Origin: Oscillospiraceae bacterium
GTDB lineage: Bacteria > Bacillota > Clostridia > Monoglobales > Monoglobaceae
DNA length: 64,000 nucleotides
Assembly: GCA_015068605.1 (NCBI GenBank)
Contig: SVKF01000001.1
Span: 1-64,000, forward strand
Direction: 5' to 3'
Within the stretch, counting starts at the first letter, position 1. The number at the start of each line of letters is the position of its first letter. The notes under the pieces are model-generated. The model was not told where the DNA came from. It worked only from the letters and a program-made list of their open reading frames with translations, and made no database searches. This document shows, piece after piece, positions 51,011 through 62,573 of the stretch. A program made the position numbers and the translations under genes.

Positions 51011-53728
51011 TTATATTCCGGTTTCAACGAAGCAATATCCGTCATTCCACTTATCCTCATTTGCACACATATCCCAAACGCATTTTTCCTTAATGAAGCT
51101 GCTCGGGCAAACATGGTAACATTCACCCTCACTTAAATGATGCGGTCCTAACAGATTTCTCAAATTATTTATAAGCGTCAGTTCGATTTCTGTTTTTCCC
51201 GTCACTCCGAATTTTTCAAGGGGAATTCGGTTATCCGTAACGAGAACATCTTCCACACCGTTTATCTTCACTCTTACAGCATTAACGCCTTTTCTGTCAA
51301 TCAACAACACGGGATTTTCTCCAACGACATCAATCTCGGTTCTCACTTTAAGTTCACCGCAGAAGAACGGGAAGCCCTGCTGTTCAATATTTGATTTATT
51401 AATCTTTATCGGTTGGGCAACAATCGAAAAATCACCGCAAAATCTGACAGCCTTTCTGTCAAGCTTTTCCCAATTTCCGTCAGTTTTCACTCCAAAATTG
51501 CCAACGAAATATATTGCCTCGATTTCCATATCATAAACAAGCTTATTTTTTTCACTTTCAAAGGCTTTCGCCTTTTCAATATTTTCATAAACCTCTTCGG
51601 ATTGCTTAAAATCACAGTCAAAAGAAACCGTATTTTCGCCCTCTTTCAGATATTTTGCAATATCTGTTTTCTTAAAATTATAGTCAATCGCATATCCGCA
51701 CGGCGTGTTATCGATTTTCTCACCGTTTATACTGATTTCAAACTTTTCGGGAGTTTCGCAGACAAGATAAATTTCTTCGGGTACATTCTCAACCTTAAGC
51801 TTGTAATCCTGATGAATTTTAACCGGTCTCTTTAAAGCATTCGCCCGTTCGCATATATTTAAAACATATCCATCCTTTTCCTGAAGCTGACCGTCAAAAT
51901 AATAATCACATTTATCCAGCGTAATCATATTCTGCACCTTTTCAACCACTTCAAGTTCGTCACCAAGTCTGATAAAGCATTCATTTATTGTTTCAGAGGA
52001 ATTTTCGCTTCCGTCCTCAATAATCATAAGACTTCCCCAGGGCTCAAACTCATGCTCACCGTTAAAGTCCGTCAACTCTCCCGTAAATGGGTCAAGTTTT
52101 TTACCCGAAACATTGATTTTAGCCTTAATTCTTTGCGGATTTTCCTCTGTGAACATAGTGCTGTTTGCAAAGAAATGAACCCTATATCCGTCACATTCCT
52201 TCATCAAATATGTAATTTCTTCTCTGTCCGTCACGGGATTTTCAGGAAGAGCCTCCGCCTCTGTTATTGTTCCGCCTTGATTTTTAAATTCTTCAAGAAG
52301 TCTTTCCGTGTTTTCAAGCAAAAACTTTCCGCACGGATTTAAAACAACATCATAAGCACACTCACCGATTATAAGCTTCCCGTTTTCCACTCTACCGTGT
52401 CTTTCCATTAAGGTTTCATCCCCCAAATGGAAAGCAATATGTTTTTTCTCAAGCTTATCTATAACTTCGATAAATTCATAATGCAATTTTATCACAGAAT
52501 CAACATTTTTATCATCATATAATGTCCATGCGGTTGTCTGGGGATGAATAAGCAATACATTAACCTTTGCATCGCCGTTTGCAAGAATCATCCCTTGTCT
52601 TGACATTGCATCATTAAACCTTTTATATTCACTCCACCATGGCTGTTGGAGATACATAGCCGGCGGATAATCACGCTTGCGAAGTCCCCTTAAAGAATAT
52701 CCTTCAAGGTGCTGACAGAGAAGGTTTATCCCTCTTACCATTTGCCACTCATATATCCCTTTAAGCTCATCAAAGCTTACATTATGGCCGCAAAGCGCAA
52801 AGGTTTCAGATAGGATTTGCTTTCTTCCAAGCTGAGCCGAGGCTGATGAAACCTGATAAGGAGTCGGTCTCTCCTCAGGCAAAATTCTTCTGCCCAGCCA
52901 GTCCATACCCGGAATATGAAAATACTCATAATGAGGCATACAAGCCCCGTTTGAGCATAACTGACTCAAAAGATTTTCCTCACAAACAAGGTGACCTGTG
53001 AGTTTTAAGCCTCTTTCGTCACACCAATCATATATCTGCTTGCAAAAGGCATCCGAAAATAAATCCGTAACCATTTTCCAGAAAGCTATTCTTATTTTCT
53101 CGTATCCGTCAACAGGATAAAAAAGCGCAACAATATCCTCAACTAAATTTCTTCCGCAACGCTTTTTATATTCATCTTCAAAAACAAAGCTCCAGGGAAT
53201 ACCGTTTCTTGAAATCTGTGGCTCGTCCGTAAAGAATCCCGTTATTTCATTCTTATATTTTTCATAATAAGGCATATATGTTGTTCTTATAAATTCCGCA
53301 ATAACTTTTTTATCAAGAGTATCAACATAAAACGGATTTACTTCATAATAAGCCCAATAATCACCGGTTTTACCAATTACATTTTCTTTCGGCTCTTCCG
53401 AACCGATACGAAGATATTTCTGCTGATATTCAACTCCAAGACCATTTACCGCTCCGCTGCCAAAACCGCTTGGCCAGCCATTTTCGTCATAAGCCCATGC
53501 ATACATTCCATTAGCTTTTGCCTCATCTATCGCCGCTTTGACATTATCAAACCACTCATCACCCATATATTCGGTCTGAAGTCCGCCTCTTGCGTGCATA
53601 AAAAAGCCGCCGATTCCAACGCCTTGCATTTCTCTTATCTGTCTTTTTGTTTCTTCCGTTTCAAGCTTTTCATTCCAGCTCCAAAAGGGAATCGGTCTGT
53701 ATTTTTCAGGAATATTTTTAAAATCCAT
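51011..53728 (-). CDS. GH106-like glycoside hydrolase
   Basis: A 905-residue hydrolase without a signal peptide. The N-terminal third matches the alpha-L-rhamnosidase family GH106 (PF17132-like): PIPFWSWNEKLETEETKRQI, GIGGFFMHARGGLQTEYMGDEWF, and MYAWAYDENGWPSGFGSGAVNGLG. FWKMVTDLFSDAFCKQIYDW and SETFALCGHNVSFDELKG follow; the C-terminal third is beta-rich. AAGGAGAGGG precedes the ATG at 53728. Together with the GH78 enzyme at 30 kb it suggests growth on rhamnose-containing glycans, but activity on rhamnose is inferred only from family membership. Confidence 0.75.
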   Translation of the reverse strand: MDFKNIPEKYRPIPFWSWNEKLETEETKRQIREMQGVGIGGFFMHARGGLQTEYMGDEWFDNVKAAIDEAKANGMYAWAYDENGWPSGFGSGAVNGLGVEYQQKYLRIGSEEPKENVIGKTGDYWAYYEVNPFYVDTLDKKVIAEFIRTTYMPYYEKYKNEITGFFTDEPQISRNGIPWSFVFEDEYKKRCGRNLVEDIVALFYPVDGYEKIRIAFWKMVTDLFSDAFCKQIYDWCDERGLKLTGHLVCEENLLSQLCSNGACMPHYEYFHIPGMDWLGRRILPEERPTPYQVSSASAQLGRKQILSETFALCGHNVSFDELKGIYEWQMVRGINLLCQHLEGYSLRGLRKRDYPPAMYLQQPWWSEYKRFNDAMSRQGMILANGDAKVNVLLIHPQTTAWTLYDDKNVDSVIKLHYEFIEVIDKLEKKHIAFHLGDETLMERHGRVENGKLIIGECAYDVVLNPCGKFLLENTERLLEEFKNQGGTITEAEALPENPVTDREEITYLMKECDGYRVHFFANSTMFTEENPQRIKAKINVSGKKLDPFTGELTDFNGEHEFEPWGSLMIIEDGSENSSETINECFIRLGDELEVVEKVQNMITLDKCDYYFDGQLQEKDGYVLNICERANALKRPVKIHQDYKLKVENVPEEIYLVCETPEKFEISINGEKIDNTPCGYAIDYNFKKTDIAKYLKEGENTVSFDCDFKQSEEVYENIEKAKAFESEKNKLVYDMEIEAIYFVGNFGVKTDGNWEKLDRKAVRFCGDFSIVAQPIKINKSNIEQQGFPFFCGELKVRTEIDVVGENPVLLIDRKGVNAVRVKINGVEDVLVTDNRIPLEKFGVTGKTEIELTLINNLRNLLGPHHLSEGECYHVCPSSFIKEKCVWDMCANEDKWNDGYCFVETGI

Positions 53729-53786
53729 TAATAACCCTCTCCTTAAGTACAATTATAATATTTTTCATTATATCAAAGCATAATAA

Positions 53787-53827: not shown

Positions 53828-54820
53828 TTACGGACACCGCCCTATTCCCTGTGCCCAAAGACAAGCTCCGCAGGTGGGAAATTCATTATACATACAGTCC
53901 GTGTTATTTTCCAGTCTGTCATCACAGCCGTCACATATAGTGCAATCGGGGAATTCAAAATTTATCACTCTGTCACGAAAACTTAAATATTCCTCGCTGT
54001 TCCATATTCTCTCAAGGGAAATTTCATTCACGTTCCCAAAAGATTTCCCCAATACTTTCCTTTTTTCCTCATAAAAAAATGTATAGGAGCTGTGGAGAAG
54101 CTGCATACATGGCGCAACTTCTCCATTCCATTTTACAAAACAGTTGTTTTCTTCAATAAATGGACAGCTATTGAGCTTTCTCGGATAAGCTTTGTCAAAG
54201 TCCACCCGTCTCTGTTTTCCAATCAAAAATCCCGTGTCATAGCAAGATGCGTCACTTTCAAGAGGGGATGATGGGACGGCATAGCTCAAATTGATATAGT
54301 CAAATCCAATGTCATCAGCAAAATCATTGATTTTTCTCACTTCATCAAGGTTATCCCTCATAACAACATAGGTAATTCCGCTTTCGCAGTTCCCCTTGAT
54401 TTTGTGAAAATATTTAAGATTTTCGGTTATCGTGTCAAAGCGTGAGCCTATATGAATTTTCTCATAGCCCTCTCTGTCAAACCCGTCAACCGAGACCCAA
54501 AGAGTATTAAGTCCTGCATCTATAAGCATTTTAGACATTTCACAATTAAGCATTGTTGCATTGGTCAAAAGCTCTGTTTTTACACCATTTTTTGAAAAAC
54601 ACCGAACCATTTGCGATATATTTTTATGAAGCAAAGGCTCACCCATACCGCCAAACATAACCGATTTAACCAAAATATCCCCTTTTAAGATATTCTCAAA
54701 GGTTTCATCGGTCATAAACCCTGACCTCTCGTCAATCCAGTTATGACGAAAACACATACTGCAGTTTAAGTTACAGGCAGATGTTGGCTCGATATAAAGT
54801 TTTTCAATGGCATAAGGCAT
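53828..54820 (-). CDS. radical SAM/SPASM-like protein
   Basis: A 330-residue radical SAM enzyme. The S-adenosylmethionine cluster motif is at residues 16-23 (SACNLNCSMC, CxxxCxxC), followed by GGMGEPLLHKNI and LLTNATML. A SPASM-like Cys-rich C-terminus holds CPFIEENNCFVKWNGEVAPCMQ and then CTICDGCDDRLENNTDC and CGACLWAQGIGRCP. Substrate unknown. The ATG abuts the stop of the preceding iron-sulfur gene, so it is translated in the same unit as the three QueG-like genes. It might modify one of those proteins or a small molecule. Confidence 0.85.
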   Translation of the reverse strand: MPYAIEKLYIEPTSACNLNCSMCFRHNWIDERSGFMTDETFENILKGDILVKSVMFGGMGEPLLHKNISQMVRCFSKNGVKTELLTNATMLNCEMSKMLIDAGLNTLWVSVDGFDREGYEKIHIGSRFDTITENLKYFHKIKGNCESGITYVVMRDNLDEVRKINDFADDIGFDYINLSYAVPSSPLESDASCYDTGFLIGKQRRVDFDKAYPRKLNSCPFIEENNCFVKWNGEVAPCMQLLHSSYTFFYEEKRKVLGKSFGNVNEISLERIWNSEEYLSFRDRVINFEFPDCTICDGCDDRLENNTDCMYNEFPTCGACLWAQGIGRCP

Positions 54821-55747
54821 TTATTTCACATCCAGTTTCCATTCTTCTCTTGTTCTGAATTTATTTTTAAACTTTTTATTAAGAACGCCTTTTTCCTCCA
54901 GATGGATATAACAAGCCCTGTCGCAGGCATTTCCGCAAATTGATGAGATATAGCTATGCATAATCGGCGGATAATATGAAATATTATTCATAACATCCTT
55001 TGCATCCTCGGCGGAAAGCTGTTTTTCACCATTTAAAATTTCAAGTCTGTCCTCTCTGTGAGGCAGGGCATGGCTTGACATAAACGGATTTTTAGACATA
55101 TTCGCCCCTGCATAATAAGCGGCACACTGCCACGGCTCTTTCTTTTTGTCTTTTATCGCCTTACCGGGACAAGCCTTTATACATTCACCACAGTTATCGC
55201 AAATATGCGGAGTAAACTCGGGAGTTGGCTCAATTTCTGCATCGGTTAATACAAAGCAATATCTTTGAAGAGGACCGAAATCATCAGTTAAAAGCGTTCC
55301 GCTCACACCTATTTCACCAAGACCGCATTTTGCGGCGCTCTCCTCGTAATTCATCTGATATTCCGCAGATTTACCGCGATAAATCTTATTATAAAGAATT
55401 TCGGGGTTTGTGCTGTCCTCTTCCTGCATTACCACCTGATTTTTCTTTTGCGGAAGGGCAATATATCCTTCCTCCTCCAAAATTCTTGCACAGCGGAGTG
55501 CCATCATTGGCATAACAGTTTCTTCCAGAACCTCAATCGCCATTGTTGTATAGTGGTGATAGGCAGTTCCTTCCTCTATTCCTCTGTGTGTTCCTCTTAA
55601 AATTCTGTAGCCCAGACAAATAACAGACTTTGTTTCGGGAAGAATTTTAAATATCGGGTCATTTTCATCAAATCGGCTCGCAGGCGCAACACCAATCATA
55701 TCAGGACCAAGAGAGATATTTTTAAGTTCATTTATTTTATTAATCAT
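54821..55747 (-). CDS. QueG-like 4Fe-4S protein, paralogue 3
   Basis: A 308-residue protein resembling epoxyqueuosine reductase / reductive-dehalogenase-like proteins. N-terminal part: VICLGYRILRGTHRGIEEGTAYHHYT; ferredoxin-like site CDNCGECIKACPGKAI (about residues 187-202); a C-terminal Cys cluster SSICGNACDRACY. It starts in a 4-base overlap with paralogue 2 and ends against the radical SAM start. Role unknown; no tRNA-modification context is present, so true QueG function is unlikely. Confidence 0.75.
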   Translation of the reverse strand: MINKINELKNISLGPDMIGVAPASRFDENDPIFKILPETKSVICLGYRILRGTHRGIEEGTAYHHYTTMAIEVLEETVMPMMALRCARILEEEGYIALPQKKNQVVMQEEDSTNPEILYNKIYRGKSAEYQMNYEESAAKCGLGEIGVSGTLLTDDFGPLQRYCFVLTDAEIEPTPEFTPHICDNCGECIKACPGKAIKDKKKEPWQCAAYYAGANMSKNPFMSSHALPHREDRLEILNGEKQLSAEDAKDVMNNISYYPPIMHSYISSICGNACDRACYIHLEEKGVLNKKFKNKFRTREEWKLDVK

Positions 55748-56649
55748 ATTTTGCCCACCTCCTTAAGATGCTTAAAGCAAGCATAGTCACACTTTTTTCC
55801 GCAAAGACACGGCGAATAACCGTTATACATAGGCAGAAAATCAATCTGCTTGATTATTTCTCTCGCCTCTTCGGCATCAAAATGCTTATCTCCGTTTAAA
55901 ATCGCATCTCTTTCGGGATGGTCTTTTAAGAAATCCTCCGTCATAAACGGATTTGATTTGTGGGCACCTTTATAATATACCGCACATTGCCAACTGTCAA
56001 GTCCTTTTTCAGAAATTGCATTTCCAACGCAAGCTTTAATGCACTCTCCGCAATTATCACAAAGCTCCTCTTTAACCGGTTCGTCTTCTTCAAGCTCCAT
56101 ATCCGTCACGATGAAAACATATCGCATACAAGGACCATATTTAGGGTTGATAACCCTTCCGTTAAGACCTTCTGTTCCGAGTCCGCACAAAACCGCCGCC
56201 TTATTATAATCAAGAATAACTTCCGGGGCAGGCTTGCCGTCGCCCACCGATTCCGAATATGAAATCTCATAAACATCCGTTATTTCAGGATTTGCCGATT
56301 TATCCCCATCAACCTTCATATTGGGAACACTTCTCTGAAGACACGCATCATATCCTGCATCCTCAATAATTCTCGCCATTTTACATAAGAAAATCGTTGC
56401 AAGCTCTTCGTCTATGTATTTAACTCCAACCGAGGTGTAAAGATAGCTTTGATTTCCGTTTTCCATGGCTCTGTAAAATCCGCTGGGAACATAAAATCCG
56501 AAACCTATAACAGACTTTGCTTTAGGACAAATTGATACAGGATTTTTCTTTGGGTCTTCGTCTTTAAATCTCTCAATACCTGCAATTCCGCAGACTGTTG
56601 CACCATATTCTATTGCCTTTTCTTTTATAAATTGACTGTCAATAATCAT
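55744..56649 (-). CDS. QueG-like 4Fe-4S protein, paralogue 2
   Basis: A 301-residue paralogue of its neighbours. It has SVIGFGFYVPSGFYRAMENG, CDNCGECIKACVGNAI (Val in place of the usual Pro after the fourth Cys) and a C-terminal SPCLCGKKCDYACFKHL. The ATG at 56649 follows GGAGGGTGG; an ATG ten codons earlier sits before that site and is rejected. Twelve bases separate it from paralogue 1 and it overlaps paralogue 3 by 4 bases. Confidence 0.75.
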   Translation of the reverse strand: MIIDSQFIKEKAIEYGATVCGIAGIERFKDEDPKKNPVSICPKAKSVIGFGFYVPSGFYRAMENGNQSYLYTSVGVKYIDEELATIFLCKMARIIEDAGYDACLQRSVPNMKVDGDKSANPEITDVYEISYSESVGDGKPAPEVILDYNKAAVLCGLGTEGLNGRVINPKYGPCMRYVFIVTDMELEEDEPVKEELCDNCGECIKACVGNAISEKGLDSWQCAVYYKGAHKSNPFMTEDFLKDHPERDAILNGDKHFDAEEAREIIKQIDFLPMYNGYSPCLCGKKCDYACFKHLKEVGKI

Positions 56650-56660
56650 AATCCACCCTC

Positions 56661-57722
56661 CTATCTGTCCATTTTCCAAGGCTTGCCTGTTCTGAGCGGT
56701 TCTTTAAACTTCCCTTCAAGGCAACCAACTCTCTCTAAAACACTTTCACAACCTCTTATACATCCGCCGCATTTCGCCATTGCGTATCCTACCCAGCTTG
56801 GTGCATACATTTCAAAGGCTCTCGCCGCCGCAACCTCATTTTCCGGTGTCATTTCAACCTTACTCTCAATAAAATCTGCGTTTTCATCAAAAACATGAGC
56901 AGGAACAAAAGGATTATAGGCTTTTCCGCCTGCCGTGTAAAATGTGTTGCAACGCCACACATCAAGGTCGCCCCATGTACACTCTTTTCCGGCAACATTA
57001 ACCGTTACGCTCTTTGATTTATCAGTCGGAATACATCCGCCGGGGCACTCTCTTGCACACTTCATGCACATTTTGCAAAGCTTAGGTCCATCATAGAGCG
57101 GGTCAGGCTCAAGCTCTGCGTCAGTAAACAAAAATACAACTCTTTGTCTCGGGCCGAATTCGGGAGTCAAGAGCATTTTACTCCACCCGATTTCACCAAC
57201 TCCGCAGGCAACCGCACAAAGTCTGAAATGGATAAACAAATCAGGAGGGATATTCCCCTCTCTTGTTGCTCTTGTATGAGGCATTGTTCTTCTGTCACCC
57301 GTTATTCCGTTCCCCGACGAATCCATGCTGAACGCTTTTTCTTCAGGGGAATAGGTCTGCCCAAGCTTTCCGTCCATATCCGACTGAATACTTCTCGCAC
57401 CTGTGTTTCTGTAAACAAATGCTTCATAGCCTTCATCTTCAATCATTCTTCCAAGCTCATATAAAACTGCAGGCCCGAACATCTGGTTTGTTCCGCCATA
57501 AGCCATTGAGGGATACTGAAAAAACTGTGTCCCCTCCTCAATTCCTCTCTGCACTCCTCTCGGAATACGAAAAGCAAGACATATTATGCTTTTCGCATCA
57601 GGATACATAAGCTGCGGATTCCAAAGGTCGGGAGTATCGTTAAATCTGTCCATTGACCCGATTCCGCAAATGTCAGCTCCTGCCGCAAGTGCCGCTTCCT
57701 TTATCATTTTACTTGTCAGCAT
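56661..57722 (-). CDS. QueG-like 4Fe-4S protein, paralogue 1
   Basis: A 353-residue paralogue, the longest and first of the three. It shows SIICLAFRIPRGVQRGIEEGTQFFQYPSM, GEIGWSKMLLTPEFGPRQRVVFLFTDAEL, CKMCMKCARECPGGCIP (iron-sulfur site), and a C-terminal MAKCGGCIRGCESVLERVGCLEG. It is the promoter-proximal gene of the unit that continues to the radical SAM gene. Start: ATG 8 bases after GGAGG. Confidence 0.75.
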   Translation of the reverse strand: MLTSKMIKEAALAAGADICGIGSMDRFNDTPDLWNPQLMYPDAKSIICLAFRIPRGVQRGIEEGTQFFQYPSMAYGGTNQMFGPAVLYELGRMIEDEGYEAFVYRNTGARSIQSDMDGKLGQTYSPEEKAFSMDSSGNGITGDRRTMPHTRATREGNIPPDLFIHFRLCAVACGVGEIGWSKMLLTPEFGPRQRVVFLFTDAELEPDPLYDGPKLCKMCMKCARECPGGCIPTDKSKSVTVNVAGKECTWGDLDVWRCNTFYTAGGKAYNPFVPAHVFDENADFIESKVEMTPENEVAAARAFEMYAPSWVGYAMAKCGGCIRGCESVLERVGCLEGKFKEPLRTGKPWKMDR

Positions 57723-57748
57723 TTTTTACACCTCCAAAATATTATATA

Positions 57749-57777
57749 TTGACTTTAACACACAAATATAATATAAT
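57749..57777 (+). promoter_or_regulatory. promoter for the AraC/U32-like genes
   Basis: TTGACT (57749-57754), 17-base spacer, TATAAT (57772-57777), about 60 bases before the AraC start. Confidence 0.7.
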
Positions 57778-57778
57778 C

Positions 57779-57807
57779 AATACAGAAAAACAATTAAAAT
57801 CTGTCAA
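57779..57807 (-). promoter_or_regulatory. promoter for the QueG-like/radical SAM unit
   Basis: On the minus strand TTGACA (57802-57807), 17-base spacer, TGTATT (57779-57784), about 57 bases before paralogue 1. It overlaps back to back with the AraC promoter, so one bound regulator could affect both. Confidence 0.55.
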
Positions 57808-57836
57808 AAACAAACATTTTGCAAGGCGGTGATTTT

Positions 57837-58679
57837 TTGATTGCAAGAGACATAAATCCATTTATTCGTACTGCGTTTATTCATTCAAAATTTCCTCTTG
57901 ACATTTTTGTAACCTGTGCGGATTGTCGCTTATTTTATGTATTAAGCGGAGACGGTACGCTAATTTTAAAAGATAAGTCTCACGAATTTAAAAAAGACAC
58001 ATTATTCCTTTGGAAAAGCGGAACAAAATATAAATGGAAATTTTCAAAAAATAATATTCCCCGTCTCGGCATTATCAATTTTGATTACTGCCAGGATTAT
58101 CGTCATCTTTCAACGCCTATTGACCTAATTTTAAACGACTGCGAAGACGAAATTCTGACAACCCCATCTATTCGGGATGTGTCTTTGCTCAATGATAAAA
58201 TAATCCTTGACAACGCAAACGTTTTCAAAAATGACATTATGGAAATAATACAGAACTGCGAAAGCACATCTCAATTTTCAAAGGAGCTTGCAGACTCAAA
58301 TTTAAAAAGACTGATAATTAAAATTGTTCGGCATATTACGGAAAGCTCCCACTCTGTATCAAAGCTTTCGCCAATTCTTAATTATATACACGAGAATTAT
58401 AATACTGAAATATCGAATAAAGAACTATCAAAAATAGTAAATTATCACCCACATCATTTGAACCTTTTGATGAAGAAACAAATGGGGACAACTCTTCATT
58501 CTTACATAACTCAATACAGAATGACCGAGGCACTTAAGATGCTTGCAAACACAGATAAAAGCATAGAGGCAATCGCAACAGAGACGGGATACAAAAACCC
58601 CTCTCATTTTCACAAAATTTTTAAACAAACCTACGGAATAAGTCCGTCGGAATACAGAAAATCAACTAATATTATTTAG
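57837..58679 (+). CDS. AraC-family transcriptional regulator
   Basis: A 280-residue regulator; the C-terminal domain has ISNKELSKIVNYHPHHLNLLMKK and SIEAIATETGYKNPSHFHKIFKQ, the two AraC helix-turn-helix motifs. The N-terminal domain is cupin-like (LFYVLSGDGTLILKDK, KKDTLFLWKSGTKYKWKF). Start TTG at 57837 after AAGGCGGTG; an earlier in-frame TTG lies on that site. It is divergent from the iron-sulfur unit and 10 bases ahead of the U32-like gene, so it probably controls both. Confidence 0.88.
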   Translation: MIARDINPFIRTAFIHSKFPLDIFVTCADCRLFYVLSGDGTLILKDKSHEFKKDTLFLWKSGTKYKWKFSKNNIPRLGIINFDYCQDYRHLSTPIDLILNDCEDEILTTPSIRDVSLLNDKIILDNANVFKNDIMEIIQNCESTSQFSKELADSNLKRLIIKIVRHITESSHSVSKLSPILNYIHENYNTEISNKELSKIVNYHPHHLNLLMKKQMGTTLHSYITQYRMTEALKMLANTDKSIEAIATETGYKNPSHFHKIFKQTYGISPSEYRKSTNII

Positions 58680-58689
58680 GAGGACACTT

Positions 58690-59715
58690 ATGAAATTCTC
58701 AGTTGGCTATCAGGTAATGACAAATTCATCTTATATGGAATATATTGCGGAAAATAAGGAACATATTTATGAGCTTTATTTTTCCTGGGGGGATATTCCA
58801 AACGGCAGAAACAGTATGCTTTTAAACCGTGAATTATACCCATGGCAGGCACAGCAAAAACAAATTGAAGATTTGGCTTATATTTCAAAAAACGGTATAA
58901 AGCTTAATCTTCTTCTCAACGGAAACTGCTATGGTGAAAACAGTCAGGCAAGAAGCTTTTTCGTTAAAATCGGGGAAACAATCGATTATATCGCCTCCGC
59001 ATTTGGTCTTTCGTCGGTTACGACGACCTCACCGCTTATAGCAAAATTTATTCACGAAAATTTTAAAGGAATAGATGTCCGTGCTTCCGTAAATATGAAA
59101 GTCGGAAGCATTATGGGAATGGAATATATTTCCGAATATTTTGACAGCTTTTATATACAAAGGGAGCTTAACCGAAATCTTGAGAAAATTAAAGAACTTA
59201 AAAGTTGGTGCGATAAAAACAATAAAGGATTATATATGCTTGCAAACAGCGGTTGTTTAAACGATTGCTCCGCCCACACATTCCACGATAATCTTGTTTC
59301 TCACGAGGCAGATATTGCAAAAATGGATAACGCTTACGAATTTAGCGGAATTTGCCGTGAGCATCTTTCAATCGCTCATAACAGAGTGTCAATCTTAAAG
59401 GACTCAAATTTTGTCCGCCCTGAAGAAATCCGACTCTACGATGATTACTTCTGTGGTGCAAAGCTTGCCACAAGAGTCAGTCAAAATCCGATAAGAACAT
59501 TAAAAGCATACATAAGCGGCAAATACAACGGAGCCGTAACGGATTTATTAGAGCCAAACCACAGCGGAATATTCTATCCCGATATAATTGAAAACAGCAA
59601 AATTCCCGAAGGCTTTGCCAAAAAAGTTATGACCTGTGATAAAAAATGCGACACCTGCGGTTACTGTCAGAGTGTTTTAGAAGGCGCAACAATAACGCTT
59701 CCGTCCGACATATAG
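58690..59715 (+). CDS. U32-peptidase-like protein with Cys-rich C-terminus
   Basis: A 341-residue protein resembling the TIM-barrel core of U32/UbiU-type proteins: YIQRELNRNLEKIKELKSWCDKNNKGLYMLANSGCLNDCSAHTFHDNL (landmarks RELNRN and NSGCLNDCSAHTFH) and VSHEADIAKMDN; the C-terminus has CDKKCDTCGYCQ. The conserved cysteines suggest an iron-sulfur cluster rather than peptidase activity, as in UbiU/UbiV. It is co-transcribed with the AraC regulator and, by context, part of the same pathway as the divergent QueG-like unit. The function is unproven. Confidence 0.65.
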   Translation: MKFSVGYQVMTNSSYMEYIAENKEHIYELYFSWGDIPNGRNSMLLNRELYPWQAQQKQIEDLAYISKNGIKLNLLLNGNCYGENSQARSFFVKIGETIDYIASAFGLSSVTTTSPLIAKFIHENFKGIDVRASVNMKVGSIMGMEYISEYFDSFYIQRELNRNLEKIKELKSWCDKNNKGLYMLANSGCLNDCSAHTFHDNLVSHEADIAKMDNAYEFSGICREHLSIAHNRVSILKDSNFVRPEEIRLYDDYFCGAKLATRVSQNPIRTLKAYISGKYNGAVTDLLEPNHSGIFYPDIIENSKIPEGFAKKVMTCDKKCDTCGYCQSVLEGATITLPSDI

Positions 59716-59735: not shown

Positions 59736-60040
59736 GGCGGTGTTTAAAAAGTCAAAGGGACTTTTTAAACACCGCCTTGGTTCTAAGGGGATAGGAAAAA
59801 AGCTTTAAAGCGGACAAACTGAGCCAAAGCCTTGGCTTTGGGTTACCCGAAGGCGTACATAGGTACTCCGAGAGGCGAAGTTTGTTTCGTAGCTAGAAAA
59901 GATAATATATTTAAAAAAATCAAAAAATTTGATTTTTTTACCCCTGTTTTTAGGTATATTCAGGGATATATTCTACAAAAAATTTTCTCAATCCCTGTTA
60001 TTTTTCCTCTTTTCTTGCGATCCGGAGTTTTTTAACACCC
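59736..60040 (-). repeat. full-length dispersed element, copy B (family 1)
   Basis: The reverse complement of copy A (10229-10535) with substitutions and 1-base gaps. It carries the terminal 41-bp palindrome (59736-59776, loop AAAGG), the 18-base palindrome around 59824-59841, the 30-base core (59846-59875) and the left end near 60013-60040. Its middle reads through as a short ORF that is not convincing as a gene. It sits between the convergent U32-like gene and the next gene and fills that 338-base gap. Confidence 0.9.
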
Positions 60041-62367: not shown

Positions 62368-62530
62368 ACACTTCCTGTGGTGTTCGTATTAACGAAACAA
62401 ATGTAAAACCAACAAACTATCTAAGGGAACTGTTCTCCGGGTGTGGCGCACATGCCTCCCGCTATGCGGCCAGTGGACTTGTAAAGCATTCGGGACGATA
62501 CCCACCTGCCATGCAGGTTTTTACTTTTTT
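62368..62530 (+). ncRNA. ssrS: 6S RNA (RNA polymerase inhibitor)
   Basis: A ~160-nt RNA that binds housekeeping RNA polymerase and mimics an open promoter. The ends match Firmicute 6S: CCTGTGGTGTTCGT at the 5' side and CGGGACGATACCCACCTGC ... CATGCAGG at the 3' side, so the closing stem forms; AACCAACA and CCGGGTGT lie between and pair with ATACCC. The stem GCAGG is followed by TTTTTACTTTTTTT, an intrinsic terminator. It is unlike SRP RNA: the GGAAGCAGCC tetraloop region is absent. Confidence 0.75.
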
Positions 62531-62573
62531 TCGTCTACGGCATATATGGGAAGTGTTTTTTTATCTAAAAACC

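Follow-up and report, generated by a model that had tools for sequence, protein, structure and literature searches.

A Conserved Triad of Class III-Type Reductases with a U32-Fold Partner in Clostridia

Introduction

The class III cobamide enzymes whose structures are discussed in the QueG paper are the reductive dehalogenases and QueG itself, in which DYH is the catalytic motif and Asp130 takes the position equivalent to Asn272 of PceA (PMC4646009); among U32 proteins, UbiU and UbiV bind a [4Fe-4S] cluster through four Cys (PMC6747719). Here, we analyze a locus at positions 53828–59715 of a 64,000-nucleotide stretch of contig SVKF01000001.1 (henceforth the window) from an Oscillospiraceae bacterium, a member of the Clostridia of a kind present in herbivore guts. 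An initial annotation of this DNA had described three different QueG-like paralogues of stated lengths, and a gene for an AraC regulator and one for a U32-like protein that diverge from them across a common promoter region. The three open reading frames (ORFs), which we call A, B, and C and collectively the triad, were found as claimed and all match both the reductive dehalogenase (RDH) and the QueG families at scores under the family cut-offs, and the divergent arrangement was likewise recovered (Table 1). The triad belongs to a known fold class yet to neither of its known member families, RdhA and QueG. Among open-licence PubMed Central (PMC) papers we found no description of the system or of an assigned pathway, and nothing relevant on related systems, on sets of QueG-like and U32 genes, or on DUF5696.

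A, B, and C Are Divergent Relatives of RdhA and QueG

Profile searches matched A, B, and C to the RDH model TIGR02486 with E values of 3e-17, 1e-12, and 2e-10 and to the QueG model TIGR00276 with E values of 9e-5, 2e-10, and 1e-6, respectively, and these matches to both models point to a family likeness beyond chance. The scores nevertheless lie under the family cut-offs, at 63.3, 48.4, and 41.1 bits versus the curated 160.35 bits of TIGR02486 and at 21.6, 40.0, and 28.0 bits versus the 200 bits of TIGR00276. The AlphaFold model of A, the only paralogue modeled, is of moderate quality (predicted local distance difference test [pLDDT] 70; predicted template modeling score [pTM] 0.73), and its only strong Foldseek matches are RDH, PceA, NpRdhA, and QueG structures (E values between 1e-8 and 1e-5; the 1e-8 match is an RDH structure, which gives A the RdhA fold); the next-ranked fold match is the B12 chaperone CblD at 1e-2. 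All three proteins are diverged relatives of RdhA and QueG, the base-off-cobalamin, two-[4Fe-4S] "class III" enzymes.

Eight conserved Cys residues, the number of ligands in the two Fe-S motifs of RDH, are present in each of the three proteins as CX2CX2CX3C, a lone Cys, and three C-terminal Cys that are spaced CX2CX3C in A versus CX3CX3C in B and C; in A they are C216, C219, C222, C226, C258, C318, C321, and C325. This is the two-cluster arrangement of RdhA with about 50 residues inserted ahead of the last three Cys, and the C-terminal cluster is therefore the usual second one in a displaced position rather than the additional, unusual cluster that had been suggested for each paralogue. The second cluster varies among relatives: in A-like copies of several Kiritimatiellota and Armatimonadota (L046, L049, L050, L051, L052, and L037) one of its ligand Cys is replaced by Glu (ALEGAxGC). 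The proteins end 28 (A), 10 (B), and 29 (C) residues past the last ligand Cys and thus have no room for the C-terminal helical-repeat domain of QueG, and the DYH motif is absent from all three translations.

The motif RxPRGxxRGIEEGTxFxQY (residues 52–70 of A) is near-invariant in A and mostly retained in C and in stand-alone relatives of A; in B it is degenerate. At position 106, every A protein has N, the stand-alone relatives mostly N, H, or D, B proteins S, A, or T, and C proteins mostly R or K; in a very weak alignment that is gapless from a common Gly onward, N106 of A stands opposite Asn272 of PceA. Two Tyr residues are candidates for the active-site Tyr of RdhA and QueG, namely Y70, which is near-invariant in every group, and Y75, which is found only in A and the stand-alone relatives. 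Because A keeps the motif and the active-site positions common to the stand-alone relatives, it is likely the catalytic member of the triad, and B is possibly a noncatalytic or electron-transfer subunit.

The top families and folds of the triad being those of RdhA, A could act on natural halogenated compounds as the reductive dehalogenase of a true organohalide-reducing system. We consider this improbable, since the scores reach 41–63 bits versus a 160-bit cut-off, sugar-catabolism genes recur in the neighborhood (see below), and neither a twin-arginine translocation (TAT) signal nor a gene for an RdhB-like membrane anchor was found in the window set (ORF translations and neighbors). Some Kiritimatiellota relatives do carry a TAT-like start, which reads MSRLSRREFLAS in two copies (L046 11091 and L050 8765) and MSRLSRRQFLAS in a third (L049 8740). 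Of the reductive or dehalogenase-like pathway proposed initially, the first part holds in the form of a conserved, regulated reductive system of class III type, and no specific sign of dehalogenation was seen.

Conservation of the Triad and Its U32-Fold Partner

The comparison set comprised 148 related genomes, with two named genomes added for the triad loci. A-type proteins occur in 19 of the 148, one of which (G062) has 15 A-type matches. Eighteen triad loci were read; 16 are complete and run A-B-C on a single strand, and contig ends truncate the remaining two. The phylogenetic tree resolves A, B, and C as three strongly supported monophyletic clades, in each of which the window-type copies make up a branch of their own, and one triad of each type is present both in the genome of the window (G000) and in G012. 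The second, diverged A-B-C triad of the window's genome (L068 913–3840, G000:C28) has its own AraC gene and a DUF5696 gene. Stand-alone relatives of A, at times in tandem and followed by a U32-like gene, are found in Oscillospiraceae, Armatimonadota, and Kiritimatiellota. Independent occurrence of the paralogues elsewhere would have spoken against a single system, and on this point the picture is split: A-type proteins also occur without B and C, beside the U32 partner, whereas B and C were seen only within the triad. Among distant relatives there are also single proteins of about 755–842 amino acids (aa) that are built from a pair of class III-type modules, with a separate ferredoxin-type region in each (Table 1), and these make a physical association of the paralogues plausible.

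The model of the U32-like protein (pLDDT 88) has the U32 fold, its best match in the PDB being the U32 peptidase 5d88 at 1.8e-8, followed by a match at 1.6e-4. The window protein has no Pfam family above cut-off, PF01136 included, and 12 of 18 relatives match PF01136 weakly (best 5e-4). Four Cys residues, C80, C189, C193, and C222, are invariant in all 26 U32-like proteins, as for a four-Cys [4Fe-4S] site with a spacing unlike that of UbiU/UbiV, and 22 of the 26 have an extra C-terminal CX3CX2CX2C. Among the 148 relatives, 15 genomes have a strong U32 match, and every one of them also carries A (Fisher p ~3e-17); of the 17 strong U32 loci, 16 have A next to them or one gene off, the exception being G012:C22. 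At the deeper level, the conserved core consists of A and the U32-like protein.

A Predicted Tandem Operator

The 96-bp region between the AraC gene and A contains the direct repeats TTTGTTTTT and ATTGTTTTT, which are 20 bp apart and about 90 bp upstream of A. Similar repeat pairs, 20–22 bp apart, are located upstream of A in other triads with a divergent AraC gene and upstream of the U32 gene where that gene comes first. With a half-site derived from the A-first loci and afterwards applied to the U32-first loci, and with shuffles that preserved base content only, the half-site pair matched 16–18 of 18 letters in 13 of the 17 regions tested and 14–15 letters in the remaining regions. In most of these 13 regions the pair starts 85–136 bp ahead of its target gene, A or U32, and no other tile in a scan of the 64-kb window equaled the operator score. 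The regulator itself matches HTH_18 and HTH_AraC above cut-off (85.7 and 67.9 bits in the profile search) and belongs to the AraC family. The conserved predicted operator supports the AraC regulator of the initial annotation.

Gene Layout and the Radical SAM Gene

Eleven nucleotides separate the stop of A from the start of B, B and C overlap by 4 nt, and the gap between C and the downstream radical S-adenosylmethionine (SAM) gene is 0 nt, in agreement with the translational linkage of the paralogues to a SPASM-like radical SAM gene that the initial annotation had noted. For B, an alternative longer frame with a TTG start extends to 56679. On the plus strand, the AraC and U32-like genes end at a terminator-like hairpin; on the minus strand, glycoside hydrolase (GH) 106-like, EamA transporter, and HAD-type (NagD-like, by reading) genes lie beyond the radical SAM gene. 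Elsewhere in the window, a 6S RNA (RF00013, 83.6 bits) is located at 62369–62556 (+).

Table 1. Features of the locus and of two-module relatives (positions in the window, unless a locus is named)
Feature	Position	Strand	Remarks
Gene A, class III (RdhA/QueG-like) reductase	56661..57722	-	353 aa; probable catalytic paralogue
Gene B, paralogue	55744..56649	-	301 aa from ATG; Fe-S Cys intact, 52–70 motif degenerate
Gene C, paralogue	54821..55747	-	308 aa; 52–70 motif mostly retained
SPASM radical SAM gene	53828..54820	-	330 aa; optional accessory of triad
AraC-family regulator	57819..58679	+	N-terminal cupin-like sensor region; divergent to A
U32-fold Fe-S protein	58690..59715	+	conserved partner of A; four invariant Cys and C-terminal CX3CX2CX2C
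Divergent promoter region with tandem operator	57723..57818	-	96 bp between AraC and A
Strong terminator-like hairpin	59736..59776	+	18 pairs; just past U32-like gene
GH106-like glycosidase	51011..53752	-	downstream of triad; sigma-70-like site of its own at 53795-53767
Two-module single proteins	L104 2545-4860; L105 1620-3950; L107 2824-5091; L106 2585-5113; L108 3294-5711

The product of the radical SAM gene has radical SAM and SPASM domains above cut-off, and its best family is the tungsten oxidoreductase maturase TIGR04317, at 241.5 bits versus a cut-off of 380 bits. It is linked to the triad at only 3 of the 18 loci (G000, G012:C42, and G059:C17), and the neighborhood comparison thus does not bear out a four-gene unit that includes it. 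A radical SAM relative in G128 adjoins an aldehyde:ferredoxin-oxidoreductase-like gene and two small ThiS/MoaD-like genes (by reading); no AFOR_N domain or tungsten oxidoreductase was found in the window's genome, and a role in tungsten-enzyme maturation is unsupported there. A defense role was also rejected: A, B, C, and the U32-like protein have no PADLOC match, and the radical SAM protein matches viperin models over its radical SAM domain only.

With its radical SAM gene nearest to metalloenzyme maturases, the triad might have kept the fold and the Fe-S clusters without using a cobamide, its members carrying electrons through their Fe-S clusters or inserting the cofactor of another enzyme, with the radical SAM protein as co-maturase, which would also suit the loss of the conserved motif from B and the low model confidence near the presumed corrin pocket of A. 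We regard this as unlikely: the strongly invariant motif in A and its stand-alone relatives and the residue at position 106 (N in A, mostly N, H, or D in the relatives) suggest an active site, no conserved metalloenzyme target lies beside the set, and no tungsten oxidoreductase is present in the genome.

Neighboring Genes, B12, and Queuosine

A DUF5696/GH101-like gene is present in 7 of the 18 triad loci and overlaps C in five. One stand-alone A-U32 locus also contains GH28, xylose-isomerase-like, arabinose-isomerase-like, and sugar-kinase-like genes, and further neighbors include GH2, GH3, GH28, phosphomannose-isomerase, sugar-isomerase-like, Gfo/Idh-like, and glycyl-radical genes (several by reading). 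At L065 3927–6900, a glycyl-radical enzyme and its activase are encoded upstream of a triad and U32 locus. The tie of the GH106-like gene of the window to the triad is uncertain; as this gene has a promoter-like site of its own and no second tile of the window reaches the operator score, it may lie outside the AraC regulon.

The window's genome encodes a B12-binding protein that reads as the methionine synthase MetH, beside a MetF-like gene; neither the cobalamin adenosyltransferase PF01923 nor a cobalamin riboswitch was found in this assembly, which is 83% complete. A cobalamin riboswitch was found at L033 4825–5014 (+), downstream of C and ahead of a DUF4430 gene and a likely energy-coupling factor (ECF) S-component gene.

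QueA is encoded 56 kb from the triad, and the same 83% complete assembly yielded neither a QueG above cut-off nor a QueH, which agrees with the initial remark that this is not the normal setting of QueG in tRNA modification. The same finding, together with the distant relationship of A-B-C to QueG, would allow the triad to be a non-orthologous epoxyqueuosine reductase that reduces the epoxyqueuosine made by QueA, but several observations make this very improbable: A is present in just 19 of 148 relatives, one genome holds two different triads, the set comes with AraC control, a U32 protein, and genes resembling glycosidases, and the proteins have neither the DYH motif nor the C-terminal repeat domain of QueG. 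In addition, QueG and QueH may merely be missing from a metagenome-assembled genome of this completeness.

Proposed Function

The set fits neither known use of the fold, dehalogenation or tRNA modification, and probably carries out a reduction step that has yet to be described, most likely during the breakdown of sugars or glycosides. From the glycosidase and sugar-gene neighbors and the B12-related context we arrive at a proposal that we give about an even chance, namely an AraC-induced, probably cobamide-dependent reductase system for a sugar- or glycoside-derived compound, made up of the class III-type reductases A-B-C and the U32 partner. The AraC protein would bind the tandem operator and switch on A-B-C (or U32-A-B-C) upon binding a small-molecule ligand. 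A, B, and C, co-inherited reductases with a nitroreductase-like corrinoid domain and two [4Fe-4S] clusters each, would form a heteromeric complex. B lost the motif yet retains its Fe-S ligands, and C diverged in part; the simplest reading is that B, and perhaps C, passes electrons. The two clusters would feed a cob(I)amide, which would drive a probable low-potential reductive cleavage, at a C-O bond, epoxide, ether, or the like, of the putative sugar- or glycoside-derived substrate, on which the U32 protein may also act or which it may prime. In some lineages the radical SAM protein would have an accessory part, as a maturase or a modifying enzyme.

Several points weigh against this proposal. 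Cobalamin binding by A is deduced from the fold, and in the model, which is of only moderate confidence overall, the pLDDT of the active-site loop (residues 56–73) is partly below 50. Three triads have no adjacent U32 gene, and the U32 gene of G012 lies elsewhere. The glycosidase neighbors vary by locus and may mirror a gut life-style instead of the substrate, and the GH106-like gene of the window may have its own promoter. Control of the triad by a cobalamin riboswitch was rejected, as the single riboswitch among the scanned loci is the one downstream of C.

We tentatively suggest, at somewhat less than even chance, that the system constitutes a functional branch of its own, the third among class III cobamide enzymes, in which a three-paralogue complex and a two-cluster U32-fold partner perform a B12-dependent reductive step, so far undescribed, in the anaerobic catabolism of sugars or glycosides. 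If true, this would extend B12 reduction chemistry to a third kind and indicate a new role for the vitamin in how anaerobes break down carbohydrates, by a conserved and regulated branch that extends across gut Clostridia, Armatimonadota, and Kiritimatiellota and regularly has a U32-fold Fe-S protein as its companion. Through its conserved operator and the close pairing of A with U32, the system lends itself to direct tests.

Comparison with Known Systems

TIGR04317 maturases are the top family of the radical SAM gene, a relative of which in G128 lies beside an aldehyde:ferredoxin-oxidoreductase-like gene, but the window protein stays at 241 bits versus 380 in a genome without AFOR_N. With the U32 hydroxylases UbiU and UbiV (PMC6747719), the U32-like protein shares the U32 TIM-barrel fold and four invariant Cys like their [4Fe-4S] ligands; it differs in the spacing CX108CX3CX28C, in the additional C-terminal Cys motif of most members, and in matching no Pfam family. 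QueG (TIGR00276) has a similar core, fold, and two clusters, whereas A, B, and C are under its cut-off, without its DYH motif and C-terminal repeat domain, and away from queuosine genes. RdhA (PceA, NpRdhA; TIGR02486) is the top match in sequence and fold and shares the fold class and two [4Fe-4S] motifs in equal order; in contrast to RdhA, the triad proteins fall under the family cut-off and have the insertion of about 50 residues before the last three Cys, and the window set, without an RdhB gene or TAT signal, combines three paralogues with a U32 partner under AraC control.

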